Shown here one piece after another: positions 1,691-37,149 of a stretch of DNA of 64,000 bases. Every line of letters begins with the position of its first letter. Position 1 is the stretch's first letter. The stretch comes from Tubulanus polymorphus. Its lineage: Eukaryota > Nemertea > Palaeonemertea > Tubulaniformes > Tubulanidae. Both the position numbers and the translations under genes were made by a program. The notes under the pieces are model-generated. The model had not been told where the DNA came from. It worked only from the letters and a program-made list of their open reading frames with translations, and did not search any database. The stretch spans positions 3,690,072-3,754,071 of the forward strand of contig NC_134034.1 of NCBI RefSeq assembly GCF_964204645.1, read 5' to 3'.

Positions 1691-4600
1691 CTTGTTTAAT
1701 TTCTTGCGAGCAGGGGTCACACGGACCGGAGTGACACAAATTCGCGCAGTCGTGTAAACCGCAGTTTAACTGTTTTTCGCATTGGTTTTCACACTTCACG
1801 TTCACGGAGAGACCGCATTTCACCGTTTTACTACGCGAAAAATACCGGTTAAGGGAAACAATTAAAAATTTCATTTCGCTGAAAAAAGGTCATCGAAAAC
1901 AAAAAACGGGTAAAAAATTATTTTTCAAAATTTCGCGAGGGAAATGTTGTCCAAAAAGAGCATATTCTTCCGGATTTCCTCTAGAAAAACATAGGCCTAT
2001 GTTAGTTATGGAAAATGCTTGAAAATGAAACGAACATTAATTGACATAAACCTTGAAAATTTGGTGTGTGAAAAAGGATACGAAATTTTTCCGCAATCAC
2101 AATTTTTCGTGGTAGTCGCATTACAAGGCGGACACGGACCCGGGTGACACAATCTGAAATGAGATCAGAAATATAGAACATTTCTGTGTATAAAGATTAA
2201 TTCCTAAGAGCTATTGCTAGGGTCATTTCTATATATTCACATAAGTTTTAAATCAAGCTTTGTTTAGCTATATACACAGGACATCGAACATTTTATCAGG
2301 TCACATTTTAAATTAAAAATCTGATCGTCCACACTTCACATTAAGTCAGGACTTTGCTGACACGTTCTTATTGAAAATGAACTAAAAAAAATCAGACATT
2401 AGACATTACAGGGCAGCCAACCTCTGAACAGTGCTGTCAGTAACAAATTGAAATCTTTTTAGTAACTTTTCATCGAAATAAGGAAGAAAATGTTCAAATT
2501 AATCAGTTATCAACAGTAGGCCCTCAGTAACATCTTTTGTATTTCTATATGCATCAAACTAATCTAATCAGTATTTCTCATTACGAAATACGTAGTAACA
2601 AATACTGAAAATCAGGAACAGCTGGCAGTTCTGACATTACATCAGCACACTTTCAGTAACTGATCATCCCCAATTCATATGTGTTCAGAACTTCACCCGA
2701 GACATTTTTTAACCCTGTCAGTGCGTCTACACCGCAGGGCAGTGTATGAACTGGTGATGGATTTTGCTAGTACACCGCACTGCGGTGTATTGATGTAATC
2801 AGTAATTAGTTTTTATCTCTATTAGATGATGGCAGCACCTGTCAAACATAGTGAAATATTAGTAACTAACGATACACTGCGCCGCGGTGTAGATGCACTA
2901 TAGTGCTATTCCCGTTATTCAACACACTAGGGTGGAATTTTCAAAAATTTTCAAATTATCTCCAGCACTATAGGGTATTGATTAGTCAGCACTGGTTAAA
3001 TTGAAAATGAACAACAATCACCAGATTATTAATCGGCAAAACTGATTCGAATTCAAACTACAACATGGTTCCAGGAGAGGTAGCCGCATTAATCGAAGAC
3101 CTGATCGAAACGTCGAAAAACTTATCCGCTAAATTTATGCAGCAAACAGCTAGGATAAATTAACACCGGCACGTTAAACCGGGGGCTGAGACATAAGTCG
3201 TACTTACATGTTACATTTATGCGGGCAATCTCGCGATCGCTTGCAGACCTCGCCGCAGCCGTGCGGCGTCTCGTACCGACTGTAAACCGGATCTTGCGCT
3301 TTACCGCAGAAACAGTAGTAATGATGCGGCAATCTGTCGTTGATGTTCTGACACGCCGGACAACGCCAGCCGGAATCCTCACCTGAAATCATCGAGAGAC
3401 GTCCGCGATGAGAATAAGTAACTAATCACGATTTTATTGAAATATCTGAAGTTATCCAGAACAAGAACATCATTAGTAACTAATCATAACTATACTGAAG
3501 TCTTAAGTCATTAACTCTTTGCCTGCCAGGTCTATCTTTTAGGAAATGCTGCGCTTTGCCAGGATTTCCGTGTTTTTCAGAGATTCATAAAACAAAAAAC
3601 TAGAAGAGATCAAATTTGTTTTATTTTGCTCATCTGGTCTTGCTTGTTCGTGTAAAATAAGCAGTATTTCTTCTAAGAGTGATAAAATCTGCAGCAATAA
3701 TAATTGGCAGGCAATGGATGGGAGATATCGAACGTACCAGTACGTGTTTGGCAGGCAATGAGTTAAGAATGAGAAGGTTATCATTAATAAAAACCGATCA
3801 TAATTTCATTGAATACCGTAAGTCATCTAGAACATTGTCATAAGTATCTTATCATAGTTTTACTGAATCAATGAAGTCATTCAGAATACGATGGCTGTCA
3901 TCTAAGTTCCTACGGTAATCATTATTTTACGTAACAAATATCTAAAGTCATTGAGAACATTTTCATAAGTATCTACTTATGATTCGACTGAATACTTGAG
4001 TTATACCGTAATTCGAATAAAAAGGTCGGCAATCGTAACAAATCATAATTTCAATGAAATCATCCTCCGACAAACATAACTTTACTGAATACTCAAGTCA
4101 TTTAGAATGAGAAGAAGGTCCTTACAAGTAGTAAATAATCCTAATTTTACTGAGAAATCATTTCAGTCATCGAGAATGACTAGGTCATCATTCGCAACTA
4201 TTTATAATTTCAAAGAGTTTTTGAAATTATCTTGAAAGGTCATTTTAATATATATGACTTCATTTGACCAAAAAAAAAAATTATAATGTTACAGGTTCGC
4301 TCAGGTACAAAGTACATTAATGGCAACACCATAATGATAATTGTTAACAAGAAATGGGTCAAGTCATGTACATTTTTAACATATAGATACATAAGATTCA
4401 GAGAACATAAGACAGAGAAAGAAAAACAATAACAATAACAACAGTGGTAATAATTGAAATGGGAAAAAAACAATTAAAAAAAAGGAAAATAATAAAGGAA
4501 AGAAAACAATTGTCGGTTAGAAAGGTCATCATCAGTATCTTATCCTAATTTAACTGAATACTTGAGGTCATTTAAAATGAGGTCATCATAAGTAGTCATA

Positions 4601-7600
4601 ATTTCATTGAATCATTGAAGTCATTTAGAACGATGTCGATAGAAAATACCCTAATCGTCATTTCACTAAGGGATCATTCATTTATTATGTACACATGAAA
4701 TTTGACTTTTTCAACCCCCCTTGTACGCAAAATCAGCCATTTTTTAATATACATTAACCCTTTCAGTGCTGACTGATCGATACCCTATAGTGCTGAAGAT
4801 AATTTGAAAATTTCACCCTAGTGTGTTGAATAACGGGAATACCATTAAAGCGCCTCTACACCGCAGCGCAATGTATCGTTAGTTTCTAGTATTTCACTAT
4901 GCTTGACAGGTGCTGCCATCTTTCAATAGAGATATAAACTAGGCTAATTACTAATTACACCAATACACCGCAGTACGGTGTACTATCAAAATCCATCATG
5001 AGTCATACATAGAGATAGAGATATAAACTAGGCTAATTACTGATTACACCAATACACCGCAGTGGGGTGAACTATCAAAATCCATCACCGATTCATACAC
5101 CGCACTGCGGTGTAGACGCACTGAAAGGGTTAAGCATTACAGTACGCAATTGCCTGACCCCCCTCCCCTAATGCGTACGTAATAAATGAATGATCCCTAA
5201 ATCATTGAAGTCATCGGGAATGAGAAGGTCGTCAGTAGCACTAAACCATACCAGAAACAGCTTTACGAATAGCTTTTTTTGTTTTTTTAGGACGCTGAAG
5301 TTAACGTACGTACGTACCGTCGACCATAGCGACTGGCGACCGCGACCAGGTTTTGATGCAGCGCAGGTGAAAAATGTGGTAACAACTGCGACAATTCCAA
5401 ACGGCGGCTTCGTGTTTGACGACGTCGTAACAGATCATACATTCATACGTGTTCTGAATCAGTTGATCGATCAACGAACCTGAAACGACGAAAATTACAA
5501 ATAACACATAGTCCAGCGCTTAACCTCTTCACTACCGCGGATATTTTTTTTTTTTTAACACCCTCAACCCGCTAAGCGCCACACAAGGCATTATAAGCAG
5601 GTTCGACGTTTCTTTTTCCCAATCGGGGAGAGACCAGAGAAGAACCTTCGACCAAGAAACTCTGTCGCCACCAGGGTTTGAACCCATAAACCCTGGATTG
5701 ACGAGACCAGTAACCGGCGGCTTAAACCACTCGGCTACTGCGCTGGATAATGTAACGTACCTCACCAGGATTCGAACCCAATGGCATCAATCAATTTAAA
5801 AAAAAATCGGTATTAGAGACTGTTAGAGTTACTAATCCTCCATCTATGAGTTAAAATTGGAACTAAATTGAGGCAGACAAGCCTATAGTACGGCTACACC
5901 ACACCAGCGATTGTAGTAAACACATATATCTGCGATGTAAATATATGTCACGCATGGTGAGAGAAGGTCATTATTTGCGTCGTAAATACACGTCACAAGT
6001 GGTTATGAAGAGGTTAATCCGGATCAGTTTTTACGATCAAATTCCTATCATTTGAGGAAAAAAATATTGGTATTATCACCACCAGCCTATAACATCGGTC
6101 ATCTCACCCCGGAGGGAAGCAAGCTGCTAGGCGCTCAGGAGTCATCTATCAGGCCAGATATCCATTTACTCTTGGGTGGAAAGAGGTAATATGGATAAAG
6201 TCTTGCCCAACTGGGGAAATTATGGTAGTGTACGGCCTGGCTTCCCGGAGTCGAAACGCTCTAACCACTCGCCTATGCCGCTAATCTTGCAAATAAATTC
6301 TATATGATGTTGTATGATCTAAATTCCTGATAAACCGGATGAATTTCATCAGTCCAAAAATGATCGGGATAAAGCAGGGTTCTCGATAAACTATCACTTT
6401 CAGCCCAAGGCGATTGATTTACCTCTTTTATCATATTTACCTCTTTGAGTTTCTAGTTCTTCGTTCGTCATCTTCTTCAATTCTCGTCTATTGTAGACGA
6501 TCTTATCCCCGGTTCTAACGGCGAAACCGGTTGAATCCTTGGCGCCGTCGTAAGATCCCCGATCACGAGAACCCCTGTTGTGACCGCTGGAGCCCTTATC
6601 TTCGCCGAAGCCTTTTTCATACGAGTCTTTGACTTTTCCGTTAAAATCACGCGCGCTGAAACCCCTGTCGTAAGTTCCCCTACCTCTGCCATAACTTTTA
6701 TTATAAAAATCTCCATCTTTGTTACAGCCATTGTCATAAGAACCCTTATTTTTGCCATATTTTGCCATTTTGTCTTTGCCCGACGGCTTTTTATAAGAAC
6801 CCTGATCTTTCCATCTAGTATTCTTGTTGCGCGGGACTCTGTCTCCATTGGACGCCTGTTCATAGGAACCCTGATCTATCCCTGTAGTATCCTTGTTGCG
6901 GGGGACTCTGTCTCCGTTGGACGTCTGTTCATAGGAACCGCGATCTATCTGTTTAGTATCCTTGTTGCGGGGGACTCTGTCTCCATTGGACGTCTGTTCA
7001 TAGGAACCCCGATCTATCCCTCTAGTATTGTTGTTGCGGGGGACTCTGTCTCCATTGGACGTCTGTTCATAGGAACCCTGATCTATCCCTCTAGTATTGT
7101 TGTTGCGCGGGACTCTGTCTCCGTTGGACGTCTGTTCATAGGAACCCCGATCTATGCCTCTAGTATCCTTGTTGCGGGGGACTCTGTCTCCATTGGACGT
7201 CTGTTCATAGGAACCCCGATCTATCCCTCTAGTATCCTTGTTGCGGGGGACTCTGTCTCCGTTGGACGTCTGTTCATAGGAACCGCGATCTATCCCTCTA
7301 GTATTGTTGTTGCGCGGGACTCTGTCTCCGTTGGACGTCTGTTCATAGGAACCCCGATCTATGCCTCTAGTATCCTTGTTGCGGGGGACTCTGTCTCCGT
7401 TGGACGTCTGTTCATAGGAACCGCGATCTATCTGTTTAGTATCCTTGTTGCGCGGGACTCTGTCTCCGTTGGTGCCCTTTTTATGAGTGCCCTTGCGTTC
7501 CCTGCCCGACTCAGGCCCTTTGTTGTCCGGTCCGTAGCCGCAGTCGCCGTCGAAATTCTCGTCATCGACACGATAGTCGTTGCCGGCCTGGTGACCGCGC

Positions 7601-8433
7601 CGATCGGGAGGTCTGTATCTGTAATTATCGCGAGCCGGTGCGGTGTATCTGTCGTGAACGTCTCGTTCGGAACGCAACGTTTTCCGATCCTCGTTTCCGA
7701 CGACTCTTACGTCCCCGTAACGAGATTTAAAACTGCAATTTCCGACGCCGTTCGAGCGTTCATTGTTTTCGTCGAAATCCTCAGCGCGAGTGTCTCTTTT
7801 CGAACGCGACGGCGGTTTCACACGCGTTTTTCTATCCTCCTCTTCGGCGATTCTTACGTCGCGATATTTAAAGACGTCATTTCCGCACCCGTTCGACCGG
7901 TCGCTTTTTTCGTCCCGGTATCTTTCCGATTCTCGATCGAAATCCGAATTCGTATCGCCGACTCCACGCGTCGCGGCGCCTCCCCTTCCTCTGCCAGCCC
8001 TACCCCCTCTCGACCCTCTACGCTGCACTCCCCGACTCGATTTATCCGCCCTATCCTCATTTCTATTGTCGCGATTTTCCGCCCGTCTGTCGTAGTTTTT
8101 CCACCGGCCGCGAGAAGTTTTTGAACGTTCCGTGGCACCGCGGTTCATTGGGACGCCTCCGCGATTTCGACCGCGCGACTTTGGCCGCGCCCCGCCGCCT
8201 GCTTCCGCTACGACACCGCGCTGCGTCGAGTCCGGCCGCGATTCAACGCTGTCCGCGTTATTTCCAGGCGCCGCGGGCGTTTCTTGAAACTCGTAGAATC
8301 CGTTCGAGTAGTCGAAATGTCCGTCCCAATAACCGGAATAATCGTAATCATAACCGTAATTATAATCATAACAATAGCCGTACTCATCGTAATTATAGCC
8401 ATATTCATCGTAATTCGGAAATTGTTGCTCCAT
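1691..8433 (-). CDS. NFX1: NFX1-type RING and zinc-finger protein, 5' part (partial gene)
   Basis: Five coding exons join in phase: 8433-6441, 5479-5318, 3382-3208, 2153-2082 and 1830-1691, about 847 residues, running off the left edge. The first coding exon begins behind a clear acceptor (pyrimidine tract then CAG, exon from 8446), so a 5'UTR intron lies upstream of the ATG. Residues 1-60 are Tyr/Asp-rich, 70-310 are Arg/Asp/Gly-rich and disordered, and about 316-546 are ten 23-residue repeats. Residues 678-729 form a RING/RING-CH module (CMIC, CRSC, HIFH, CIKTW, WRCPAC). NFX1-type Cys/His zinc fingers follow (CGEVC..CPHKC, LCHPGPCPPC, CGLHDC, LCHSGPCDPC). Known family members are nuclear and cytoplasmic nucleic-acid-binding proteins with E3-ligase-like RINGs, acting in transcription and mRNA control. 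The ordered RING and finger modules make the family secure. The remaining fingers and any R3H domain must lie beyond base 1. Confidence 0.9.
2708..2999 (-). mobile_element. piggyBac-type MITE (TTAA), inverted copy
   Basis: Starts TTAACCCTGTCAGTGCG and ends CAGCACTGGTTAA. The interior carries the family core (TACACCGC..GCGGTGTA palindromes, GACAGGTGCTGCCATC equivalent) in reverse orientation relative to 4754-5133. It lies in an NFX1 intron. There is no coding capacity. Confidence 0.65.
4670..5197. mobile_element. GGGATCATTC MITE interrupted by a second MITE
   Basis: Near-perfect terminal inverted repeats GGGATCATTCATTTATTA..TAATAAATGAATGATCCC. Uninterrupted copies about 157-165 bp long occur at 27387-27543 and 36390-36555. 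The first copy has TAA on both sides, the 36390 copy has TCT on both sides, suggesting a 3 bp target duplication (PIF/Harbinger-like, an inference). This copy is split at its internal TTAA by the element at 4754-5133. Confidence 0.85.
4754..5133 (+). mobile_element. piggyBac-type MITE nested in another MITE
   Basis: Begins TTAACCCTTTCAGTGC and ends GCACTGAAAGGGTTAA, a perfect inverted terminus with TTAA on both sides. The uninterrupted host copy at 27387-27543 reads ACATTAAGCATTAC at the same place, so the TTAA was duplicated on insertion. That is the hallmark of piggyBac transposases. Inside are several TACACCGC..GCGGTGTA palindromes and a partial internal duplication (about 4980-5060). It is non-coding. 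Confidence 0.9.
5565..5762 (-). mobile_element. tRNA-derived SINE, family B (reverse)
   Basis: On the reverse strand the head reads GTAGCCGAGTGGTTTAAGCC (A-box like) followed by GGGTTCAAACCCTGG (B box), as in a Leu/Ser-type tRNA with a long variable arm. A non-tRNA body follows and the copy ends in the poly-T tract near 5551-5562. It lies in an NFX1 intron. Its body differs from SINE family A. Confidence 0.65.
6090..6292 (-). mobile_element. tRNA-derived SINE, family A (reverse)
   Basis: On the reverse strand the sequence reads GGCATAGGCGAGTGGTTAGAG, then a B-box-like CGACTCCGG, then the family A body (GGGCAAGACTTTATCC, AGTAAATGGATATCTGGCC, GACTCCTGAGCGCCTAGCAG). It lies in the NFX1 intron just before the large first coding exon. 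Confidence 0.7.
6795..7485 (-). repeat. In-frame 69 bp coding minisatellite in NFX1 exon
   Basis: Ten tandem 69 bp units encode the 23-residue motif SYEQTSNGDRVPRN..T.GIDRG. Units differ mostly at the KD/NN, RG/KQ and R/Q positions. The length is an exact multiple of three, so copy-number change would not break the frame. The repeats are hydrophilic and probably disordered. The reverse strand is also open across them (about 6580-8124), which is a by-product of the repeat composition. Confidence 0.93.
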
Positions 8434-10460: not shown

Positions 10461-10475
10461 ATCACTGTATCACTT

Positions 10476-13400
10476 GATTGATGTCTGTCTGCAGAGTTTC
10501 CAGAACCTGTCATGTCAGGTCTTAAGACCTGACATGACAGGTCTGACCTGTCATGTCAGGTCCCGAAAAAACCCAAACTCATGACAATATTTGACGAAAC
10601 GGCGAAATATCTAGACATGTGCTAGACGAATGGAAGAACATTTTGAGTTGAATGAATATTCTGACCCGTCGTTAATATCGAAAATGATTCAACAATAACG
10701 ATAAGGAAATTGTTCTGACAAATAATTCATTTGAAAGGTTGATTTATAAGAAGAAAATATTTATGTGTAAACTATGACTTATTTCTGTATTAAAGGGAAA
10801 AAAATAAGTTTATAAGTTTTAATTTAGTAGATGAATTTATTAATGTAGAAGTAAGAGCACATTATAAGTCTAAGAGAAAATTTTCGCTAGATGAATCGAG
10901 GTCTTGATATTTCGTTTCCGCAATAAGACACTGAAAATTATCTGCTCACTATCACAGTTCGGCAACACTCCTCACTGTCATCAGTCATGAAGTCTCACTA
11001 TTTATATTCATTGTCTTTATGATGTACATGTAAAAGAGCCGAATGCAATATAGAAACTGATTTTATTGAGACTGATTTTAAATCTACTCATCAATTTAAA
11101 GCATGAAGTTTTTTTTCAATTTATACCAGTTTTAATGCAGACCTGTCACCTCAGGTCCCGAGAAGCTCTGCAAAATGGCGCGAGCTGCCGTGTGAGGTCT
11201 CACTTCATAATTATTGTTTTATAGCAACTTAAGATTAACTCTATCAATGGTTAGCAATTTATATTATACTTATTACTATATAAAGGTTATAAAAAGTAAA
11301 GTTTTTTCCATTTCATCAGTTTTAGTGCAGACCTGTCACCACAGGTCCCGAGAAGCTCTGCAAAATGGCGCGAGCTGCCGTGTGAGGTCTCGCTTCAAAA
11401 TTATTGTTTTATAGTAACTTAAGATTACCTATATCCATGGTTAGCAATTTATATTATATTCATTGCTATAAAGAGACCATAAAAATTAAAGTTTTCCTTC
11501 ATTTCATCATTTTAAATGCAGACCTGTCACCACAGGTCTCGAGAAGCTCTGCAAAATGGCGCGAGCTGCCGTGTGAGGTCTCGCTTCAAAATTATTGTTT
11601 TATAGTAACTTAAGATTAACTCTATCTATGGTTAGCAATCTATATTATACTCTTTACTATAAAGAGACCATAAAAATTAAAGTTTTCCTTCATTTCATCA
11701 GTTTTAATGCAGACCTGTCACCACAGGTCCCGAGAAGCTCTGCAAAATGGCGCGAGCTGCCGTGTGAGGTCTCGCTTCAAAATTATTGTTTTATGGTAAC
11801 TTAAGATTAACTCTATCTATGGTTAGCAATTTATATTATACTTATTACTATATAAAGGTTATAAAAAGTAAAGTTTTTTCCATTTCATCAGTTTTAGTGC
11901 AGACCTGTCACCACAGGTCCCGAGAAGCTCTGCAAAATGGCGCGCGTTGCCGTGTGAGGTCTCGCTTCAAAATCATTGTTTTATAGTAACTTAAGATTAC
12001 CTATATCCATGGTTAGCAATTTATATTATATTCATTGCTATAAAGAGAACATGAAAATTAAAGTTTTCCTTCATTTCATCAGTTTTAATGCAGACCTGTC
12101 ACCACAGGTCTCGAGAAGCTCTGCAAAATGGCGCGAGCTGCCGTGTGAGGTCTCGCTTCATAATTATTGTTTTATAGTAACTTGAGATTACCTATATCCA
12201 TGGTTAGCAATTTATATTATATTCATTACTATAAAGATACCATAAAAAGTGAAGTTTTTTCCATTTCATCAGTTTTAATGCAGACCTGTCACCACAGGTC
12301 CGGAAGACTCTGCAAAATGGCGCGAGCTGCCGTGTGAGGTCTCGCTTCAAAATTATTGTTTTATTGTAACTTTAGATTAACTCTATCTATGGTTAGCAAT
12401 TTATATTATACTTATTACTATATAAAGGTTATAAAAAGTAAAGTTTTTTCCATTTCATCAGTTTTAGTGCAGACCTGTCACCACAGGTCCCGAGAAGCTC
12501 TGCAAAATGGCGCGAGCTGCCGTGTGAGGTCTCGCTTCAAAATTATTGTTTTATGGTAACTTAAGATTAACTCTATCTATGGTTAGCAATTTATATTATA
12601 CTTATTACTATATAAAGGTTATAAAAAGTAAAGTTTTTTCCATTTCATCAGTTTTAGTGCAGACCTGTCACCACAGGTCCCGAGAAGCTCTGCAAAATGG
12701 CGCGCGTTGCCGTGTGAGGTCTCGCTTCAAAATCATTGTTTTATAGTAACTTAAGATTACCTATATCCATGGTTAGCAATTTATATTATATTCATTGCTA
12801 TAAAGAGACCATAAAAATTAAAGTTTTCCTTCATTTCATCAGTTTTAATACAGACCTGTCACCACAGGTCTCGAGAAGCTCTGCAAAATGGCGCGAGCTG
12901 CCGTGTGAGGTCTCGCTTCATAATTATTGTTTTATAGTAACTTTAGATTAACTCTATCTATGGTTAGCAATTTATATTATATTCATTACTATAAAGAGAC
13001 CATAAAAATTAAAGTTTTCCTTCATTTCATCAGTTTTAATGCAGACCTGTCACCACAGGTCCCGAAGACTCTGCAAAATGGCGCGAGCTGCCGTGTGAGG
13101 TCTCGCTTCATAATTATTGTTTTATAGTAACTTGAGATTACCTATATCCATGGTTAGCAATTTATATTATATTCATTACTATAAAGATACCATAAAAAGT
13201 GAAGTTTTTTCCATTTCATCAGTTTTAATGCAGACCTGTCACCACAGGTCCGGAAGACTCTGCAAAATGGCGCGAGCTGCCGTGTGAGGTCTCGCTTCAA
13301 AATTATTGTTTTATTGTAACTTTAGATTAACTCTATCTATGGTTAGCAATTTATATTATACTTATTACTATATAAAGGTTATAAAAAGTAAAGTTTTTTC

Positions 13401-15252
13401 CATTTCATCAGTTTTAGTGCAGACCTGTCACCACAGGTCCCGAGAAGCTCTGCAAAATGGCGCGAGCTGCCGTGTGAGGTCTCGCTTCAAAATTATTGTT
13501 TTATGGTAACTTAAGATTAACTCTATCTATGGTTAGCAATTTATATTATACTTATTACTATATAAAGGTTATAAAAAGTAAAGTTTTTTCCATTTCATCA
13601 GTTTTAGTGCAGACCTGTCACCACAGGTCCCGAGAAGCTCTGCAAAATGGCGCGCGTTGCCGTGTGAGGTCTCGCTTCAAAATCATTGTTTTATAGTAAC
13701 TTAAGATTACCTATATCCATGGTTAGCAATTTATATTATATTCATTGCTATAAAGAGACCATAAAAATTAAAGTTTTCCTTCATTTCATCAGTTTTAATA
13801 CAGACCTGTCACCACAGGTCTCGAGAAGCTCTGCAAAATGGCGCGAGCTGCCGTGTGAGGTCTCGCTTCATAATTATTGTTTTATAGTAACTTTAGATTA
13901 ACTCTATCTATGGTTAGCAATTTATATTATATTCATTACTATAAAGAGACCATAAAAATTAAAGTTTTCCTTCATTTCATCAGTTTTAATGCAGACCTGT
14001 CACCACAGGTCCCGAAGACTCTGCAAAATGGCGCGAGCTGCCGTGTGAGGTCTCGCTTCATAATTATTGTTTTATAGTAACTTTAGATTAACTCTATCTA
14101 TGGTTAGCAATTTATATTATATTCATTACTATAAAGAGACCATAAAAATTAAAGTTTTCCTTCATTTCATCAGTTTTAATGCAGACCTGTCACCACAGGT
14201 CCCGAAGACTCTGCAAAATGGCGCGAGCTGCCGTGTGAGGTCTCGCTTCATAATTATTGTTTTATAGTAACTTTAGATTAACTCTATCTATGGTTAGCAA
14301 TTTATATTATATTCATTACTATAAAGAGACCATAAAAATTAAAGTTTTCCTTCATTTCATCAGTTTTAATGCAGACCTGTCACCACAGGTCCCGAAGACT
14401 CTGCAAAATGGCGCGAGCTGCCGTGTGAGGTCTCGCTTCATAATTATTGTTTTATAGTAACTTAAGATTAACTCTATCTATGGTTAGCAATCTATATTAT
14501 ACTCTTTACTATAAAGAGACCATAAAAATTAAAGTTTTCCTTCATTTCATCAGTTTTAATGCAGACCTGTCACCACAGGTCCCGAGAAGCTCTGCAAAAT
14601 GGCGCGAGCTGCCGTGTGAGGTCTCGCTTCAAAATTATTGTTTTATAGTAACTTAAGATTAATTCTATCCATGGTTAGCAATTTATATTATATTCATTGC
14701 TATAAAGAGACCATAAAAATTATATATAATAAAATTACCATAATATATAATAATATAGGGCCTAATCTTAATGAGTATAATGATTGTTATTAATACTGAT
14801 TATGATTACATAAGGCACTACTGGTATCATTTTGCCTGATCTTGATATTTTTATGTTTCGTGTTACAAAAAAATAAATTAATTGTAAACAATTCGTTCAA
14901 TGTTCTCCAATAATTCACAATCATTCCATCTTTATTATTATAAGGCGATATAGTTCAACAACTTTTTATAAACGGACAAACATAAATTCTTAAATGAATT
15001 CTAAACACATCATAGTTTGTTTTTTGTTTTTGAATAATATATTCAGAAAGCACTACGATATGTTCTTTGTGTTCTTATCGGCTATCATTTGTTCTAAATC
15101 CGCGCCTATCATATCTTCTAATCGCCTATCATCGGTTCAGTCATAACGATTTTCATTTTAGCGAATCGACCTGTCACCTGAGGTCCCACCTGTCATGTCA
15201 GGTCTTGGGCCCTGACATGACAGGTTCTGGAAACTCTGCAGACAGACCTAAA
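10476..15252. mobile_element. Long inverted-repeat element carrying a satellite array
   Basis: The left end (GTCTGTCTGCAGAGTTTCC, AGAACCTGTCATGTCAGG, from about 10483) and the right end (about 15176-15247) are inverted copies of one another. Each holds further small palindromes of CCTGTCATGTCAGG. The 10 bp word TGTATCACTT lies just outside both ends (10466-10475 and 15253-15262) and could be the target duplication. A 9-11 bp duplication with long inverted ends would fit a Mutator-like non-autonomous element, but the outermost 5-7 bases do not match, so the class is uncertain. No transposase is seen; the interior is AT-rich flank plus about 19 satellite monomers. Confidence 0.6.
11135..14730 (+). 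repeat. 190 bp satellite array, about 19 monomers
   Basis: Monomers of about 190 bp each contain GCAGACCTGTCACCACAGG, AAGCTCTGCAAAATGGCGCG, CCGTGTGAGGTCTCGCTTC and an AT-rich half (GGTTAGCAATTTATATTATA). Five-monomer blocks at about 12356-13305 and 13306-14255 look identical (950 bp), a higher-order repeat. Monomers around 13877, 14067 and 14257 are near-identical, so recent homogenisation is likely. Each monomer also spans a 66-70 codon open frame, which simply recurs with the unit and has no family resemblance. Confidence 0.92.
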
Positions 15253-15259
15253 TGTATCA

Positions 15260-16115
15260 CTTCCGGGTATCGCCAATAAACTATAAATTCAATCAAGATG
15301 TAGCAGAGCGCCCTCTTGTGGTAGAAATTAAGGACTTTACTAATCCCTAGTTTTTTTTCCGGATTTTTCAGTTTGTGAATCTGTTTTGTTTCTGTGTCAA
15401 TAAATCTGCCGGTCTGGTAATAATTTGAAACGTAAACAATGAAAATGAATTGAACTAAAAAAAAAATCGTGCATTGGACTTATACCTGGATTAGCTGGAC
15501 AGGGCTACATTCTGTGCCCTGTCAACCGTTCTGTGTCAGTCTGTTTATTCATTTAGAATATCATTTGTTTTTTTAAATCACCGAGCGCTAGGGCATTGAA
15601 GAAGACACGTGAAATGATGAAGTGAAAGTAAATTTCAACTAAAATACGTACGACGGACTATATTTGGGATTAACCAGACGGTATTGCCACCTAGTGTAGG
15701 AAATTATATTTGGTATCATAGGTGACAATTTAGTACTTCTAAGGTGGAATTTCTCATGGATTTCTAGAGTTTTCGCCTTGCTTTTTAGACTGATACGTGT
15801 AAGTAGGTTTCTAAGATGCTGTCAATCTTTAATTTCCAGCGAAAAAATTGGGAGGGCGGTGAATCGAGTCGTTTAAAAAATCCGTCGGCGTCAGTCGTGA
15901 AAAATTGCGATATCATCAGTATCACCCATCACACTTCCACTTTTGGATAATGGAAATTCGGCTTTAGAAGGATGGAAGTGGATATTTTGCCTATGCAGCA
16001 TTATTTATTAAATGCTATTTTGTCAATGGCTATATATAATAAGATCTTGTATTTTGTAATTGTACAGTCCATTAATGCAAAATACCTATAAAATCATTAT
16101 ATATACTGTCATACT
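15260..16115. other. Intergenic stretch, nothing assigned
   Basis: AT-rich sequence without recognisable exons or inverted-repeat elements. Confidence 0.4.
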
Positions 16116-20561: not shown

Positions 20562-23500
20562 ATGGGCGAATATTACGTCATTCTCGGAGTGAGGAAAGAT
20601 GCGTCGGACACAGATATCAAAAAAGCGTAAGTTTTTCGGCGGGAATTTTTCGTTTTGATATCGCGAGCTGAAAAACAAGAAATGAGTTCCGAAAGAAGCG
20701 GGCCTAAAATTTGACTTGATCACATAGTGGCAATGATTGCCAAAATGGAACTACGAGATATCTCATTGTGACAATGATGGCCGAAATGGAACTAGGAGAT
20801 ATCTCGTAGTGACAATGATGGCTGAACTGGAACTATGAGATGTCTCATAGTGACTATGATGGGTGAACTGGAACATCGAGATATGTCTATAGTACGCGTT
20901 ACCTGATTAAGGCAGTTATCATCATTTTAGAATTCCGCTTCGTGTTAAATCTTATCTGTTCACTCGTCATTTCCAGCCGTAGTAATCATTTCTAGGGAGC
21001 ACCTTTGAACATCTATTGCATGAAATTGGCGCTATATAAATTTTGACATTCGTTCATCGTACGTTTCGTTTTTTTTTTGTTTTTCTCGCGGCGTAGATAT
21101 CGGAAACTAGCGTTGAAATGGCACCCGGACAAAAACCCGAACAACAAAGACGAGGCCGAGAGAAAATTCAAAGAGATTTCCGAGGCGTACGAGGTCCTAT
21201 CTGACGGTTTGTACTCATTCATTTATTAATCTTAGTCGATGATACTATTATTTGTTTATTATCTATTAATCAGGGAACGATTTTAACGAATTACTATTTG
21301 AATTGCTCTGTGTTTTTTATCCTAAATTCCGTAGTAATTAATGATACGTGAACTGATTAGTGAATGGTCTAAATGAATTAATTACAGGGTCCCTGCGACT
21401 CCTTGATTCCTTAGAAACTTCTTTGTAACGGAAAGTGTTTTTAAAGCAGCTTGAATTTAGCAAAATGCCCAAAACTTATTTAAAACTTGTCTAATTTTGA
21501 GTAGGGCCTAATAGGCAATCAGAAATTATCGTCTACAGGTAGTTTGCAATGTAGAGTAAACTACGCTACGCTTAGATGGGTATAGTTGGGGCAGTAGACA
21601 GTTACTGAATAAGTTAGTAGTGAACGGGATAAAAATTTACTTACAAAACCACTGAATTAATGGTTCAGCGAGATAAACCATACCAATTTAGGAGGAATTT
21701 TCTCCTTTTAAACTCGTAATATCCAGGAATAACTGATCATCCTTAATTAGTATTTGTATTCATGTGTTTTGTGAAATATCAATTCAACTAGTAGTTAATG
21801 ATACTTAATTGACACGTTTGATTAATTGCTAATTGATGCTGTTTAGACTTAATTAGCTTGATTATTGCGGATATCTCATTTAATTGGTGGTAATAATAGC
21901 GGTTTATCGCGTGATTTTAGAAAAAAAACGTAGTCATAGAAATATTATTTTGAAATTTAAAAAAAATTCAGTTACTTAGAGTCACTGTTTATTAATGATA
22001 CTTAATCAAAAAGAACATGTTTATATGAATTAGATACGATACTTAGTTGATCAGTGTATAATTGGCCGTACTACTATTGCTACCTCAAATAGTTAATAAT
22101 AATAATAATAATAATAATTTATATCCACAATAAATTACAACATACCATAAGGATATACAAAAATATGGGACAAGTATGGGACATTTTAATATAATGCGGG
22201 GGAGATTAGATGAAGCCAACAAAGGCTTATGAACGGTGATGGGCTAGTTGACTAAAACTTTGTCAACCCTTAAGCGTTGACCGGATTGCTGGAAATCATC
22301 TGAAAAAATTCACTTCAGACCCAGCACACTTTTCTAAACAGCGTACCGCTATAGCGCGTTGTTGGTAACTACTATTTCCCTATGTTTGACAGGTGCTGCC
22401 ATCTTCAAATAGAGATAAAAACTAATTATCGATTTCATCAATACATTACGATGCGGTGAATCGCGACACAGCGATGCGTTGTACTTGCAAAAGCCATCAC
22501 CAATATATACACCGCACTGCGGAGTAGATACACTACTAAAAGGGTTTAAGCGACCGGGTCGATAAATGCCGTGGTGACATTTGAAATAGCATTGGTTCAC
22601 CAATCTTTACCAATTTTTGAGCAATTGTCCCAATGACATTTATTGAATGTTTGTGATTACCGAGGTGATAAATCATCGAAATATCTTAACCCATTAGCAC
22701 TCAAGCTGTGCGTATCCGCCCTGCCTATTACTCCTCAAGCCGCCCGAATCCGCCCGGCACTTTTTTCATATGCTGCACGAAAACGGCTAAAGTGGAATTC
22801 GAACCCAATAGCTTATGATAAACTACACACCTAAGTCCTCGAAATACCGAACAGAAATCAACATCCTCCGATTTCAATTTCTGGAGGATTTCGAGTTTGT
22901 ACATAACACATCTGAGCGCTCACTTCAAATTCAAGTAAGTTTGGATGAATTTCGGGGTCCTAAAAGGACACGATTTTGGTGGCTCACCTCATCAAATCAT
23001 ACATCATATAAAAGCCTTGACTATTTACTACAAAATAAAACTAACTTGTAATGCATGGAAATAAACAGCAAATGAGCTATTCAGTATCGTGATGAACTTG
23101 GATTTTATCTTGAATTTTCTGAGGAGTAATTGACTCTCCTTAGCGCAATTCCTGAGTGCTAATGGGTTAAGATAAAATATTTTACATTACGTCGACCGGG
23201 TCGGCAGTGAAGATAAATAATTAATATATCCGCGTTTTTAATTTTTCCGCAGCCGACAAACGTCGTATTTACGACCAGTACGGAAAGGACGGTCTAACCG
23301 GAGCCGGCGCGAGCAACGGAGCTGACTTCGGCGCGGGCGGCGGATTCGACTTTGATTTCGGCGGTGGGTTCGCGTCGCACGGCGGCGGCGCCGGCGGATT
23401 CCGTCACGATTTCATGTTCCGCGATCCGTTCGACGTTTTCCGCGATTTCTTCTCGCACGACCCGTTCGCGTCGAACGACTTCGATCCGTTTTTCCCGTTC

Positions 23501-26500
23501 AGCGGAGGTGAGTGCCACCGATAAATCGGCGGAGACGTCGTTAGATATATTCATATACCCATGATACTAATGTCTATTTCAACCTGACTTGAGAGCATTC
23601 CGGGTGGCCTAGCTCGCTAATTTTTGGTAGTACATACCCGATAAAGGTCTTTGTAGGACCAGAAAGGACTGGCAGTCGACCTAAATCATCATGCCAATGC
23701 ATTCTGGTCCTAATTAGATATGTACCGCCAAAACTGACTGAGCTAGGCCACCCTTTATGCTCTCAAGTCGGGTTGAATAAGACATTAGAGAGATGGTTGC
23801 CTCTATGAATCACCCTATGACATCATCAAACTAAGAAAAACTCTCGTGATCCTGAAACCCTTTCAGAAACTATGGCTGCCTCCAAAAATCACACTCTGAC
23901 ATCAAACTAAGAAATCTAAAAATCCTGAGACCCTTTCATAAACGATGACTGCCTTCATAAGTCACCCTATGACATCATCGAAACATTTCTGTGCCCTGGA
24001 AGAGATGATTGCCTCGATTAATTACCTTACGATATCATCAAACTTATAAAAATTCTAATTTGATTTTGAGATAATTTCGTAAATTCCGTAAATTACACGA
24101 TGTCATCAGTGTTTAAAATATAATTCCGATAATCACGAGATCAAAAAGCTTTTAAAATATCGAAACTATCAAAATCTATTAAGAATCGGATTTTCGGTTT
24201 TACACTAAAAACCATTTTCAAGGAGTGAAAATGAAAATTCCTTGAAAATGGTTTTTAGTGTGAAACACTGAAAATTCGGGTCCTTAATAAATTTTGATAG
24301 TTTCGATATTTTAAACACTTCTTCGATCTCGTGATTGTGGGTTTATATTTTACTCGTCTCTCGCGTGCGTTACGTAGTTTTACCGCGTTGTCGTCAGTGT
24401 TTGTGTATTATATGTCAATTTCTAGGTCGATCTCGCCATCAGCAGCCGCGTCGAGCCACATCAAACCGACAAGTATCGTCGAATTTCCACCATCCCGGAT
24501 TCGGTGGATTCCCGTCGTTCGGATTCACTTCGCCGTTCTTCGGTGATCCGATGTTCGGATCCGACCCCTTCATGGACTCCGGGTAAGTAGTTAATCTCAC
24601 GAAGCGCTTGTCACGGGGGTTGGTGCGAGAGTGATATTTTTGAAGTTTAATGAAACGCTACGTCGATTTCTCGAAGCCGACGGCCCAGTTCGGCGTATCG
24701 TTTCAACGACGTTTTCAAACTTAAAAATTTTTAAACAATATCGATGCTTGTTGTAAACCAGGGCCTGGTTTCACAGACGGGTATTAATTTTAACCCGGGG
24801 GGCTAACACAATTCATTATCAGTTGAGTTAGCCCGGCGGGTTAAAGGTAATACCGGTCTATTATATAGAACCGGCCCCAGATGTATTTTGTGTCCTAAAG
24901 TTATAGTCGGCCCATATATATATCAAGTGTGATCTGTTGTCAAGTCATTTGCAGTGATTATGTTTTTGTGTTTTTTTTTCGTTTCGTGGCATTAAAAATT
25001 CGAAACCATCCAGATTGGATTCAGAAGTTTAGGGTTTAACACTTCGACTGCCTCTTCAGTGCTTTGCAGTGCTATGTATCGCATACTTCTATATTGCTTG
25101 TGCGGTGTATCCATGTAATTAGTTGAAATCAATACTGGAATCGATATACAACACAATATTGCGTTACATCAATTATACACCGCACAGTGGGGTAGATGCA
25201 AAATCTAATACATTATTTGTACACCGTACTGCTGGTTTCATAATATTGCGGTACATCAGTTATACACCGCTCTGCGAGTAGATGCAATATCTAATACATC
25301 CATTGTACACTGTACTGCAGGTTTCATATTATTGCAGTACATCAGTTATACACCGCTCTGCGGGGTAGATGCAATATATAATATATCCATTGTACACCCC
25401 ACTGCTGGGTACACAATATTGCAGAACGTCAGTTATACACTGCACTGCGAGGTAGATGCTATGTATAATACATCAATTGTACACTGTACGGCTAGTTTCA
25501 CAGTTATACATCGCACTGTAGGGTCTAGGTGCAATATATACAATACATCTCTAATACACCGCACTGCAGGTAAACACAATATTTTAAAGAACGGGAAAGC
25601 CGACGCCATGATGTCACTATACATTTGCCTTTACGATCTTCAAAATTTATCAGCGCCCTCGCCTTAAGCGATAAACAATGGATTCTCTGTTAGATTTTCT
25701 CTTCGAGCATTTCGAAAAGCATTTGGTTGAATTTAGAAACTTTTTCAAATCATGGAAGACACTAATTAATTGAGTAGAGACAGAAAACCAGTCTAGAAAC
25801 CACTAGCAGTGCCTAGCGAATTTCAAGAAATCAGCATTCCCATTGGCTTATAGTTCTACGGTTTTATGAAGCTCAACGACAAACTAAACTAAGGGTGTAG
25901 GAACTAGTGCAGATCTGGCAAGTTACCAAGCATAACATTCATGATAATAATCGGGATGTTGGAACTACCAGGAACTGTCATGGTATACGTGGTTGTTATG
26001 ATATGAGGGTTTTTAATGAAGCTCTATGACGGATGAACGATTATACGTAAACATAGGTCTATTATTTATGCGATTATTGTGATTTTCTTGTTGCGATTAT
26101 GTATTTATATTGAGTGGATTCGTGTTTAATTGCCGATTTATAAACGTACGATACAGCCCGGTATCTGTCAATCAGAACACGTGCGTATATATATAACCAT
26201 TGGAAGAGTTCATTTGGGTCATGATGTGCTCATTCATAGTGCCACAATGTCCCTGGGCACGACGCTTGTACACAAGTGGAATTTTCACTTGCCACAAGCG
26301 GAATCCTCTATTGTTGCAGTAGTTGATGTCCTACTACACACAAGTGACACCTGGTGGATATCCTCTATTGCCATAGTAGATGATGTCCTATTGCTCACTA
26401 GTGACACCTAGGACTTTTTCATTGGTATTACTTTTATTACATCATGTACCTTAGCGAACCACACTTTCACGAAATCATGTCAAATCTTACATTTAAAAAA

Positions 26501-29500
26501 AAGTGACACCTGGCTGCAGTAGTTGATGTCCTACTGCACACTAGGGACACCTGTTGGACCCTCACTTGCCACTTGTGGAATCCTCTATTGCCACATTCGT
26601 TGATGTCCTACTGTAGGCCTACATGAGTGACACCTGGTGGATCCTCACTTACCACAAGTGGAATCTATTGCCATCGTAGATGATATCCTACTGCAAACTA
26701 GTGGCACCTGGTGGATTCTCACTTGCTGCAAGTCGATTCCTCACTTGCCACAGTGAGATTTCGGATCATGCTTCGGTAGAGCTCGTGATTTATTCGATCG
26801 AATTAATATTTAGAGCAGTTAATGATTGGGAGATATTATTGATTGATCAAAACGTAATAGTTAATTGAATTTGTTAATTGATCAGATTAATTAATGATAA
26901 TTGTTTGGTTGTAAAATGAATATTTCAGAAGGAGACGTCGAAGGAGACAACGTCCACACTCTACAGCCGCCGCCGCAGCGCCCCCTTTTAGAGGATTCTC
27001 GTCATTTTTCTCGATGGATCCGTTTAGTTCTATGTCAACTGGGTAAAATATTAGTTCTACGTACGGCCGCCAGGTGGTGCGATCAATTTCAAAATATTAT
27101 GCGTATTCGTTCAAAATTTTGGGTGCATGCGAAGAAATTATATATCGGGGCAAAGGCTATTCTATATATAAGACTCTGCTTAAGTCGGATCTTTTCTGAC
27201 AAGATTTGTTTGTCTGTTATCTAAAGCTAAACTACTATCTCGTAAGTTGAATGGTTATCTCTGAGTTGAATGGTAATCTCTTTGAGTTGAATGGTAATTT
27301 CTTGAGTTGAATGAGTTGAGTGGTCATCTTTTGAACGGTCATTCCTTGATTTGAACTCTATGAGGCCTATCTCTTAATTGAACTACGGGATCGTTCATTT
27401 ATTACGTACGCATAAAATTTGAAATTTTCAACCCCCTTCCCCCTGTACGTAAAATCGGCCATCTTTTCATATACATTAAGCATTACAGTATGTAATTGAT
27501 CCCTCCCCCCTCCCCTAATGCATACGTAATAAATGAATGACCCCTACTACTATCTCTAAGTGTTGAACCACTATCTTCTAGTTAAATGGTTTTTTCTTAA
27601 GTTAAAATGTTACCTCTGAGTTGAATTGTTTGATATGAGTTGAACTGTTAACTCTTGAGTAGAACTCCCAACTCTGAGCTGTTTACTGAGTTGAAATGTT
27701 AATCCTGAGATGAACTGTTTACTCGGAGTTAAACTGTTAACTCCTGAGAGGAACTGTTTACTTGGAGTTAAACTGTTAACTCCTGAGTTGAACTGTTAAC
27801 TCGGGGTTAAACTGTTATCTCAGAGTTGAACTGTTAACTCCTGAGAGGAACTGTTTACTCAGAGTTAACTGTTAACTCCTGAGTTGAACTGTAAACTCCT
27901 GAGTGGAATTGTTTATTTAGAGTTAAACTGTTAACTCCTGAGTTGAACTGTAAACTCCTGAGTAGAATTGTTTATTTAGAGTTAAACTGTTAACTCCTGA
28001 GTTGAACTGTAAACTCCTGAGTAGAATTGTTTATTTAGAGTTAAACTGTTTACTCCTGAGTTGAACTGTTAACTCCTTAGTGGAACTGTTTACTCAGACT
28101 TAACTGTTAACTCCTGAGTTGAACTGTTAACTCCTGAGTGGAGCTGTTAACTCATGAGTGGAACTGTTTCCTTGGAGTTAAACTGTTAACTCCTGAGTTG
28201 AACTGTTAACTCGGGGTTAAACTGTTATCTCAGAGTTGAACTGTTAATTCCGGAGTTGAACTATTAACTCCTGGGTTGAACTATTTACTCAGGGTTAAAC
28301 TGTTAACTCAGAGTTGAACTGTTAACTCCTGAGTTGAACTGTTTACTCAGGGTTAAACTGTTAACTCAGAGTTGAACTGTTAACTCCTGAGTTGAACTGT
28401 TTACTCAGGGTTAAACTGTTAACTCAGAGTTGAACTATTAACTCCTGAGTTGAACTGTTGAATCTGAGTTGAACTGTTAACTCTTGAACAGTCAATCTCT
28501 CTCTATTTCATGCATCCAACTTGAGCAGAGTCTACTGAATACAAATCTCAAGTATAGAAATCTTTTATCAGGAAACAAAACATCAATTCTTCGAAGCAGG
28601 CGTTTTTCCCTCCTGGCAACTCTATGCAACTTGATGAAATAGTTGTAGCTTAGCGAGGCCGCTGTTATCAGCGTCCAGTTCTGGAGTTCCGAGTCAAGAG
28701 TTAAAACATTGGAAAGGAATTGATTTAACTCTGACTCTTAACTGTGGAACCGGTTCCGGGATGATTTGTGGAATTGGCGAATTTGAACCGCAGATTTCTT
28801 TCCCGAGCCAAGAACAAACTTCGCGAGTGGTCGCGAATGGTCGCAACTATTGCCACGAGTTGCCTGTTGTTGCCAGTGCGGGTTTTACCGACGGTCGGTA
28901 TTTACCGAAATATGACCGGTCCAACGCATGTTCAATCTTAAGGCACACACCGATCGTCAGTGAATGTTACAATCGACACCGGACATTTTTAGATTAATGA
29001 AAAATCGCATGTCTGTCCCTACGGGTCCTTCATTCCTTGAAAACTCTTTCTAAACCAAAAATGTTTTACAAGGTCCTTGAATATCCTTTAATTCGAGTAA
29101 AATGCCCACAAGCCCCGGAAAACTCCACAAGTCCTTGAAAACTTGAATTTTGAGAAATTGACTATGAGAAGATCTTTAAGTTTGGTCTTTCAAGATTGGG
29201 CCTACTTAGTTTTCATAAAAGAATTTTGTTCTGTGTATTATTTGATGAAGACTAGCTTGTTAGTAGTATAATATCGATTAGTGGGTCCGTTATTGAATAT
29301 GAAAGTGAGGAATAAACTCTTGAAATTTTATCCTCGAAAAATCCTTGAATTCTGGAATGACTGATCTGTAGGGATCCTGATAGAACACTAAACTCATTAA
29401 TTATTTATTTTTGTTTTTCAGCTGGTGATTTGTTTTTTATTGCTTAATTTTTTTCATTCTTAAAAAAAATTATACAATTTTTATTTTCAGGGCATTTTCA

Positions 29501-32500
29501 CTACTATTAACATTGATTTTTTTTCTCTATTTTTGATGTCTGGTGTTTCTTTTTATGGAATGAGGACGTGTATATATATATATGTAATATTATTCGCACA
29601 CTGACTGCTTGTTTGGTGAGCATGGTGTAAACCGTTATATGTAATAGTGGAATCTTCGTTTGGAAACACGGCTTAATAGCGAGTCTCTAAAAGTGCTTAG
29701 AAAGTGACTTACATTTGGAAAAATTTAGTAAGGCGCTTAAAAAGTGCTTGATATTGACAAAATTTCAAAATTAAGCGCTTTCGAAGTGCTTACCGGTACT
29801 TTTGAACTTAAGTATCCATCCCTAATTGTTTTTTGGGCAATTATGTGTTATGCCAACATTATTTTAGTGCGAAAACGATGCTTAAAAGTGGCTTACTTTG
29901 GCCATAGCCCTAATTACCACGATGAACACCTGAAAACCTGCTACTGGTCAGACTATAATAGCTTAAGTTTTATCAAATTTACCCAGTTGCACCCTTAGTA
30001 GACACAACCTCCCTTAGCTGGGATTCAAACCTGATGACATCATGAGACTCTGCCCCAGCTCAAACCCCTGCCCTAGTAGACACATCCTCCCTCAGCAGGG
30101 ATTTGAACCTGGTGACATCATGAGACTCTGTCACAGTACAAACCCCTGCCCTAGTAGACACATCCTCCCTCAGCAGGGATTTGAACCTGATGACATCATG
30201 AGACTCTGTCACAGTACAAACCCCTGCCCTAATAGACACATCCTCCCTCAGCAGGGATTTGAACCTGGTGACATCATGAGACTCTGTCACAGCACAAACC
30301 CCTGCCCTAGTAGACACATCCTCCCTCAGCAGGGATTTGAACCTGATGACATCATGAGACTTATCACAGTACAAACCCCTGTCTTAGTAGACACATCCTC
30401 CCTCAGCAGGGATTTGAACCTGGTGACATCATGAGACTCTGTCACAGTACAAACCCCTGTCTTAGTAGACACATCCTCCCTCAGCAGGGATTTGAACCTG
30501 GTGACATCATGAGACTCTGTCACAGCACAAACCCCTGTCCTAGTAGACACATCCTCCCTCAGCAGGGATTTGAACCTGATGACATCATGAGACTCTATCA
30601 CAGTACAAACCCCTGTCCTAGTTGACACATCCTCCCTCAGCAGGGATTTGAACCTGATGACATCATGAGACTTATCACAGTACAAACCCCTTTTCTAGTA
30701 GCCACATCCTCCCTCATCAGGGATTCGAACCTGATGACACCAGGAGACTGTCACGGCACAAACCTTTTTGTATTACATTCAGTCTCATGATGACGCTATT
30801 AAGTACTGCAGTTGAGTCCTGTGAAGCAATACGGTTTGAATCCCTACCGTGGGGTTGGGTTGGCGAATATGCCCTCGAGTCGGTTATAACTAAGGTTCCA
30901 CTATTAATTGGCACGCACGATGGCTCGCTTTCATACGTTACTAATAAATTTCTAAATCATCGAAAAATAATTCATCAGAATTTTAGCGGATGAATTCCCG
31001 TATGTTTTTGTTTCAGTCTGCATGATGCCTGAATACTAAAAACAAATAACTCTTTAAGATATTAATGAAAAATGGCAAGAATTAGTTATAAAATCGAGCG
31101 ATTAATTCATCAGAAATTTAGAATTCTATTTTTTTTTGCAAGCGAATGTTTTTTGAGATAAAATATGTGTTGAATGTAATGAAATATCAAAGGAAATCCG
31201 GAACCAAGTTCCACGGTTGTGACTTGGAATTAATTTCTTTTAAAAAGTGAAATTATAACAATTTTGGTAAATTATTGACCATATTGAGTTGATTCTAGAG
31301 TCTGTATTGCTAAGCATTTGACCTAAAAAGAGTTGCAGTTTTTAGAACGTGACTCTCGTATGAGAATCCGTCCCCGGAGTCATTGACTCTGAAGTCGGAC
31401 TAATTTGGCTCTCTATCTCTTCTTTTCTTACATTTTGACATCAAAGCTTCGTTCGTTTTTAAATAGGTCTCGAAATTATCATTTCTTAGAATTTTGACAT
31501 TCTTATCAAATGATTCTACGTAAGAGGTCATGATTTTTTTCGGAATTTGACTTTATTCTTTTTTTGACGGGGACTTAAAATAGATCGAAATCAAATTAAT
31601 CCGACGATTTTGGATTTTATGAAAATGACGTATTTATTTTCTTCGTTTTTAGGTTTTCTCAATCATTTTCAAGTTCGTCGTTTGGTGGCGGAGCGTCCGG
31701 AGGTTTCCGGTCGACGTCGCGTTCAACCAAAATTGTCAACGGTCGAAAAATAGTCACAACCAAGTATGTATCTTGCCATCAATCTACTGGCCGGAACTGT
31801 CCCCTTCAGATATTCACCGGAGCCACCCCTTAACATATTTACTGGAACCACCCCTCAGACATTCATCGGAAATGTCTCCTTCAGATATTCACTGGAGCCA
31901 CCCCTTCAGATATTCACCGGAACTGTTGGATATCCATTGGAGCCACCCATTCAGATGTTAGCTGGAACTTTCCCCTTCGGATATTCCCTGGAACCACCCC
32001 TTAATATTCCCCAGAGCCACCCCCTTTTTAGATAGTCCCCGGAACCATCCCTTCAGACAGTCACTGTTGTATCTAATGATCAGTTTTTGAAAGTGCACTG
32101 ATGGAATGTTTAATGCCTGGTGTTATCATGATTGATAAAACACTATATCCGTGTTGACGCGATGTAGAGAGAATCCCACAATTATAACGAAAAAGTCCGA
32201 AAATGTAACTTCGAGATAGTAGTTTATTTCAACGTTTCGACTATATCCTAATATTATTCCTGAAGATGACTATTAGGATATAGTCGAAACGTTGAAATAA
32301 ACTGCTATCTCGAAGTTTCATTTTCGGACTTTTTCGTTATAATTGTGGGATTCTCTCTACAATGCCTGGTGTTTATAGTTCATTTTCAATCGAAAATGTC
32401 TCAGATCAAGTACTGAACACATGTGTAGTGGTGTGGACGATCAGAAATTTGAAAGAATGGTTATAAACTACTGTACTGTCTGACCGATGCGGGGGGGGGG

Positions 32501-35176: not shown

Positions 35177-35389
35177 GATAATTCGAAAATTTTGGAAAGT
35201 ACCCCAGTGTATTGGGCATACCGCTATAGTGCGTCTACTCTACACTGTGGTGCAATGTATTATTAGTTACTTATATTTTGACAGGTGCTGCCATCTAGTA
35301 ATAGAAACAACTAATTACATCTATACATCGCAGTGCGGTGTACTATCAAAATCCTTGCCAAATTATACATCGCACTGAATGGGTTTCAA

Positions 35390-36860: not shown

Positions 36861-37146
36861 TAACCTTTCAGTGCTGAGTAATCTATATCCTATAGTGCTG
36901 GAGATAATTTGAAAATTTTGGATAATTTCACCCTAGTATGTTGAACAACGCGAATACCATTTTAGTGTGTCTACACCGCAGCGCGGTGTATCGTTAGTTA
37001 CTGATATTTCACTATGTTTGACGTGTACTGCCATCTTTCAAGAGAGATAATTACTAATTACATCAATACACCGCAGTGCAGTGTACTATCAAAATCCATC
37101 ACTGATTTATACACCGCACTGCGGTGTAGACACACTGAAAGGGTTA
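36861..37146 (+). mobile_element. piggyBac-type MITE
   Basis: TTAACCTTTCAGTGCTGAG..CACACTGAAAGGGTTAA with TTAA on each side and the complete family core; one of the best-kept copies. Confidence 0.85.
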
Positions 37147-37149
37147 AGT

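Follow-up and report, generated by a model that had tools for sequence, protein, structure and literature searches.

Structure of the element and its satellite array

The window analysed here is a stretch of 64,000 nucleotides from the nemertean Tubulanus polymorphus (assembly GCF_964204645.1, contig NC_134034.1, positions 3,690,072 to 3,754,071 of the forward strand), in which a tandem array of 190-bp monomers lies between the inverted ends of a 4779-bp mobile element. Comparison with further copies in the genome argues that the element is probably a non-autonomous cut-and-paste DNA transposon, with an interior made up of a 190-bp satellite that expands and contracts. The origin and spread of satellites are a long-standing question: classical satellite DNA forms long standalone arrays, which are usually heterochromatic, and in most transposon-linked cases, decay of the carrier precedes the discovery of the satellite. 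The present carrier is young, with no substitution between the ends of some copies; it has clear ends, duplications and empty sites, and a single family lets satellite birth, spread and turnover be followed. The parts of the window copy, in positions of the window, are:

10468..10475, plus strand: left target-site duplication TATCACTT, 8 bp, from copy comparison
10476..15254, plus strand: whole transposon copy, 4779 bp, ends set by copy comparison
10477..10562, plus strand: 5' terminal inverted repeat, with palindromes ACCTG-N6-CAGGT at 10505, 10527 and 10546
10563..11126, plus strand: 5' subterminal non-repeated region, similarity to the monomer not above shuffles
11127..14722, plus strand: satellite array, 190-bp period, 19 monomers with one ACCTG-N6-CAGGT palindrome each
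14723..15167, plus strand: 3' subterminal non-repeated region
15168..15253, minus strand: 3' terminal inverted repeat, with palindromes at 15169, 15188 and 15210 (two with one mismatch)
15255..15262, plus strand: right target-site duplication TATCACTT
15263..15268, plus strand: CCGGGT target motif adjoining the duplication, common to several other insertions

The element begins with GATTGATGTCTGTC and ends with GACAGACCTAAATG, its final base being 15254. The terminal inverted repeats are imperfect, with 86 nt per arm and 86% complementarity, and enclose a single array in one orientation, for which the tandem-repeat call gives a period of 190 and 18.9 copies, while counting by core motif gives 19 monomers. 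Within the array, an exact repeat of 1015 bp returns after 950 bp, the length of five monomers. A preliminary description of this DNA, made from the sequence alone, had reported about 19 monomers of 190 bp flanked by inverted termini, and both statements hold. Its provisional boundary needed adjustment: the outermost bases of the two ends indeed do not match, and this mismatch is constant across copies, but the right end has been moved to 15254. Similarly, the 10-bp word TGTATCACTT that it had noticed at both ends is present, but does not represent a 10-bp duplication, as the comparison of copies gives the 8 bp TATCACTT; on the left, the TG of the word belongs to the flank and agrees fortuitously, and on the right, the TG is contributed by the final two element bases. 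An Rfam scan of the window at the gathering threshold returned no match. Classification as a foldback element (FB, Tetris or Galileo type) was considered and rejected, since the 86-nt inverted repeats are not built of tandem repeats and the array is single, between the arms.

Copies of the family and their insertion sites

In the genome searched (267.8 Mb), the 5'-end and 3'-end queries yielded at least 40 scored places each, out of 129 first-look candidates for the former and 124 for the latter, and the 19-bp end word, allowing up to three mismatches, gave 97 + 102 matches versus 14 + 12 for the reversed control. Both ends were read in 27 copies, namely the window copy, L009-L028, L029, L034+L035, L030+L031, L032+L033, L040 and L041. 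This sample favours young, intact copies, as L009-L028 are ranks 2-21 by 5'-end similarity; L029-L035 were picked for wide end spacing, and L040 and L041 for being short. The two 14-nt ends were located with at most one mismatch in 23 of 23 copies (window, L009-L028, L029 and L034+L035), and median identity of the compared ends is 0.956 among the 21 copies comprising the window and L009-L028. Two older copies terminate differently (GAATGAT.../...CTAAATC). Perfect 8-bp duplications flank 24 of the 27 copies read, and in L023 the duplication agrees at seven of eight bases; duplications at the ends had been anticipated in the preliminary description, with a length of 9-11 bp that has to be corrected to 8 bp.

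Eight joined flanks, each with one duplication removed, served as queries for empty sites. Paralogous empty sites were recovered for one of the eight insertions tested, L017, which lies in a dispersed repeat: the joined 120-nt site is matched over almost its full length at ten places, and in the four of these that were read the junction is uninterrupted and contains a single, slightly diverged 8 bp (TTATATTG versus TTCCATTG).

The insertion sites show a target preference. Among the 21 of 23 copies that have at most one mismatch between their duplications, CC stands directly beside the duplication on one side at 11 sites (0.076 at random flanking positions), CTT|CC, i.e., a duplication ending in CTT and followed by CC, is found at eight (0.0012 at random), and CCGGG beside the duplication at seven (0.0008 at random). 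One of four further copies outside this set, L032+L033, has CCCGG beside its duplication. The sequence ACTTCCGGGTTCGA occurs 22 times genome-wide and not once in the reversed control, with two occurrences at the family insertions L014 and L027. The element is found in either orientation relative to the target motif.

The family inserts with 8-bp duplications and moves end to end as one unit. Its arrangement recurs at unrelated loci, each time with a single duplication enclosing the complete element. The same evidence bears on another conceivable history, in which two short inverted-repeat elements inserted independently into a standalone satellite or on either side of it, so that the association of ends and satellite would be accidental. 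The genome search with the end word did reveal ends with other interiors or wider spacing, as such a history would allow, but the identical layout at many unrelated loci, enclosed by one duplication, and an empty site that lacks the entire unit render it very improbable.

In some animals, the carriers most commonly known for short dispersed satellite arrays are Helitrons and Helentrons. The Helentron/CgHINE elements of Crassostrea gigas and the pearl elements, as far as they are described in the accounts available to us, likewise disperse short satellite arrays with conserved ends (PMC8268682, PMC7492417, PMC12628747), and a central array between conserved ends resembles the arrangement found here (PMC8268682). 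However, these elements are rolling-circle transposons without duplications, and rolling-circle transposition is described as yielding no target duplication (PMC9659126), whereas the window family has 8-bp duplications, 86-nt inverted repeats and empty sites. A satellite-bearing Helitron or Helentron can practically be excluded, because duplications are present and rolling-circle insertion makes none.

Satellite distribution and array turnover

Satellite clusters were drawn from the best 40 of 72 candidates scored, with 470 matches in all. Among the matches listed, there are 38 clusters, of which 35 lie between two family ends, three beside one, and none away from an end; C4:18.596 Mb is counted as two-ended, though one of its ends is 16 kb off through nested insertions. 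A genome search for the monomer core at up to one mismatch gives 505 occurrences, and none for the control, and the first 100 of these places form 16 clusters on C1 and C2, of which 15, judged by eye, are near an end word. In the places examined, the satellite therefore adjoins the family ends. Satellite copies apart from such ends, which the preliminary description had regarded as evidence against its proposal, are absent from the first set, and the second has one candidate exception (C2:13072030).

Copies with a perfect duplication contain between one monomer (L040, 1160 bp) and 31 (L019, 6610 bp), with four in L041; here and below, the assembly of the arrays is taken as given. Even copies with near-identical ends differ in this respect: over 560 + 330 bp of end sequence, gaps excluded, L019 and L022 show zero substitutions, but have 31 versus 16 monomers, and L020, with an end identity of 99.9%, has 11. 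When monomers are coded by type, the L019 array corresponds to that of L022 plus 16 monomers, which repeat internal blocks, minus the extra first monomer of L022. Higher-order periods vary as well: L010 has a period of two monomers, L017 and L018 of three, and L019 and L022 of four (short monomers counted). For 122 of 245 monomers the nearest relative resides in the same copy, compared to a mean of 24 under shuffled labels. Turnover of the array takes place within the element as blocks of monomers are gained and lost, array length changes faster than point mutation, and the monomer pattern within elements is the expectation under unequal exchange or conversion in each element.

Turnover by block duplication needs no function, and the perfect duplications around L040 and L041, with their one and four monomers, imply that a long array is not required for movement. 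These observations favour the view that the array is neutral cargo, i.e., a tandem repeat that formed inside a transposon and is sized by unequal exchange, the similarity to the ends recording its origin only. The chances of this view are about even. Against it, conservation within the monomer is highest where it resembles the ends, and the array has been kept in gene-bearing relatives as well as in copies that differ in their 5' subterminal region.

Similarity between the monomer and the element ends

The palindrome ACCTG-N6-CAGGT, allowing one mismatch, occurs 25 times in the window, against 1.1 expected; all occurrences are inside the element, with three per end and one per monomer. Compared with the two 120-bp ends in both orientations, the monomer consensus scored above all 300 shuffles in four of four comparisons, while the same was true for none of four controls with the inner subterminal regions. 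The earlier claim that the monomers repeat words of the termini is thereby borne out. Conservation was compared across 25 arrays in 245 monomers, after exclusion of 42 of 287 monomer matches as not near full length. In this set, monomer positions 1-70, which bear the motif, have a conservation of 0.973 versus 0.922 elsewhere. Among 187 circular shifts, two, counting the true one, attain this difference, for which the 70-bp split was set after the conservation profile had been seen. The most conserved part of each monomer holds the palindromic motif of the transposon ends, which suggests that the palindrome is, or once was, a putative transposase site.

Gene-bearing relatives and the putative transposase

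Larger relatives of the window element hold the identical array type upstream of a broken coding region. In L029 (6527 bp), a perfect duplication, AATTACTT, and the family ends enclose the array, behind which a broken coding region gives an above-cut-off PHD-finger match and OTU matches slightly under the cut-off. At the C12 locus (L038+L037), five monomers precede open frames in which a CxC4-like match stays below the cut-off; no 5' end of its own was found at this locus, and an oppositely placed second copy lies upstream. An open frame of 337 codons in L036 has an OTU match above the cut-off. L039, a more distant homologue with 32% identity to the C12 gene over 200 residues, has a CxC4 match of 34.2 bits, above the cut-off, and three of the six above-cut-off CxC4 loci in the genome adjoin relatives of the C12 gene. 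No catalytic domain was recognised in the family's broken coding regions. As a separate observation, positions 3053-3650 of L029 contain an exon-plus-intron-like unit of ~173 bp in an apparent tandem repeat inside the broken gene.

The presumed transposase is probably CxC4-bearing, and Zisupton-like by the length of the duplications it would produce, but is not assigned to Zisupton: a KDZ/Zisupton assignment was rejected, as the KDZ core domain was not found at the family loci. Elsewhere in the genome, this domain (PF18758) matches above the cut-off at 20 places, e.g., C10:8771202-8771681 and C2:16478382-16478861, while 14 control genomes have none.

Among the long copies, L030+L031 (11.4 kb) and L032+L033 (12.2 kb) have perfect duplications; with their open reading frames judged by eye, they were considered and set aside. 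The 17.7-kb copy L034+L035 (C4:18580200-18598100) has an array broken by ~15 kb with open reading frames and a 639-bp TG repeat. It was considered as an autonomous element and rejected, since its open reading frames lie in one block interrupting the array and are read as nested insertions; from their appearance by eye, we take the long ones to encode hAT and Gypsy proteins.

Comparison with known systems

Tetris, a foldback transposon of Drosophila virilis, is described as containing internal tandem repeats of ~220 bp in variable number and as generating duplications of 8-10 bp; the repeats have 37 bp in common with the outer end (~80%), have been proposed to provide extra binding sites, and feed a satellite (PMC4079207). 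Both Tetris and the window family are non-autonomous, the internal repeats of both share a stretch with the element end, and the 8-bp duplications of the latter fall within the Tetris range. In Tetris, however, the repeats are located within each long inverted repeat, whereas the window family has one central array; for Tetris, the search for a gene-bearing partner is reported to have found none, whereas gene-bearing relatives carry the array here; and many Tetris arrays are found outside the element, whereas none is clearly away from the ends among the matches listed for the window family. As far as this account goes, Tetris is the closest parallel for a transposon the repeats of which share an end stretch and feed a satellite. 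Galileo, a Drosophila element of the P superfamily, is reported to have internal tandem repeats with extra sites for its THAP transposase, as supported by binding tests, in a system in which transposition was not reconstituted (PMC3688188). Its repeats lie in long inverted repeats and its transposase is P-type, in contrast to the central array and the sequence-predicted transposase sites of the window family, but on the published description it is a precedent for internal repeats that bind transposase.

For Zisupton, 8-bp duplications have been described (PMC12730594), and Zisupton/KDZ elements are reported to be multi-exonic, with no duplications detectable in nematode copies (PMC9297572). 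Pfam describes an association of the CxC4 cluster with KDZ transposases. According to these descriptions, Zisupton/KDZ elements and the window family have 8-bp duplications, inverted repeats and multi-exon genes in common, along with CxC4 in the homologue L039, but the KDZ core that characterises the former was not detected in the coding loci of the latter, and these descriptions make no mention of an internal satellite. Among the matches listed in a literature search at the level of titles and abstracts, no satellite inside a Zisupton/KDZ element was found. The window family is set apart by its type of carrier, by having one central array, by the presence of that array in gene-bearing relatives, and by an array length that differs between copies with unchanged ends.

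Origin and possible function of the array

The preliminary description had proposed a transposable unit with a satellite of its own, and many copies with common ends, differing arrays and duplications support this proposal. Its suggestions of searching the termini genome-wide and of comparing copies of differing array length both led to these copies, which have the same ends; empty sites, which it had also named, were recovered for the one insertion in a repeat; and in place of the autonomous relative it had envisaged, larger relatives with transposon-type coding regions and the array were found, none of them intact. That the array grew from an end of the element agrees with the sequence similarity, although the order of events would be a matter of reconstruction.

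In such a reconstruction, the window copy and its sisters would be deletion derivatives of a gene-bearing element, mobilised in trans by the transposase of that element, which would probably be CxC4-bearing and Zisupton-like. The array may have originated from a subterminal piece of the element. By analogy with Tetris and Galileo, the repeated palindromes could act as extra transposase-binding sites, retained because they would raise the odds of binding and movement. Taken further, the satellite might be a working cis part of the transposon, i.e., an array of palindromes amplified from its own end, present already in the gene-bearing ancestor, adjustable in number, and selected as a transposition enhancer or as a transposase sink, with the dispersed satellite as a by-product. 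We put this forward tentatively and with some doubt, but the idea that the monomers are transposase sites is directly testable.

Several points weigh against a non-autonomous transposon with a transposase of this kind and a selected array. L027 and the 17.7-kb copy L034+L035 are without duplication, and the nearest end word to the satellite cluster C2:13072030, among the matches listed, is 7.3 kb away. Seven of the eight joined-flank queries returned their own flanks only and no empty site, a result that is uninformative either way. The conservation contrast within the monomer depends on the split chosen after inspection of the profile. On the side of the transposase, the CxC4 match (PF18717) in the C12 gene piece (E 7.5e-5, 23.0 bits) is under the cut-off of 26.9, and the C12 locus is missing from the six above-cut-off CxC4 loci; no intact transposase gene was found in the genome, where the C12 gene is represented by one second copy at 99% and three partial relatives; and the KDZ core PF18758 had no match in the coding pieces, with none of its 20 genome matches closer than ~230 kb to the family's coding loci.

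Other features of the window

A second, unrelated family with TTAACCC(T/G)TTCAGTGCGTC ends, which we take to be TTAA/piggyBac-like, occupies positions 2709-5133, 22508-22526, 25151-25502, 35324-35342, 36972-37147 and 39207-39378 of the window. On the two strands of the window together, its palindrome, TACACCGCACTGCGGTGTA, has 31 matches, where none is expected, and degenerate copies of it are contained in an 87-bp tandem array at 25151-25502, which, judging from these copies, may be a second array built from a transposon end motif. Further tandem arrays are located at 29996-30764 (78 bp), 33477-34434 (35 bp) and 27600-28487 (~20/58 bp). At 32163-32361 and 45996-46324, there are a near-perfect 91-nt hairpin (98%), the loop of which measures 17 nt, and 72-bp units in overlapping inverted and tandem arrangement. 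A minus-strand open reading frame of 677 codons (6400-8433) contains ten in-frame 69-bp units at 6782-7472, which translate into a 23-residue protein repeat.

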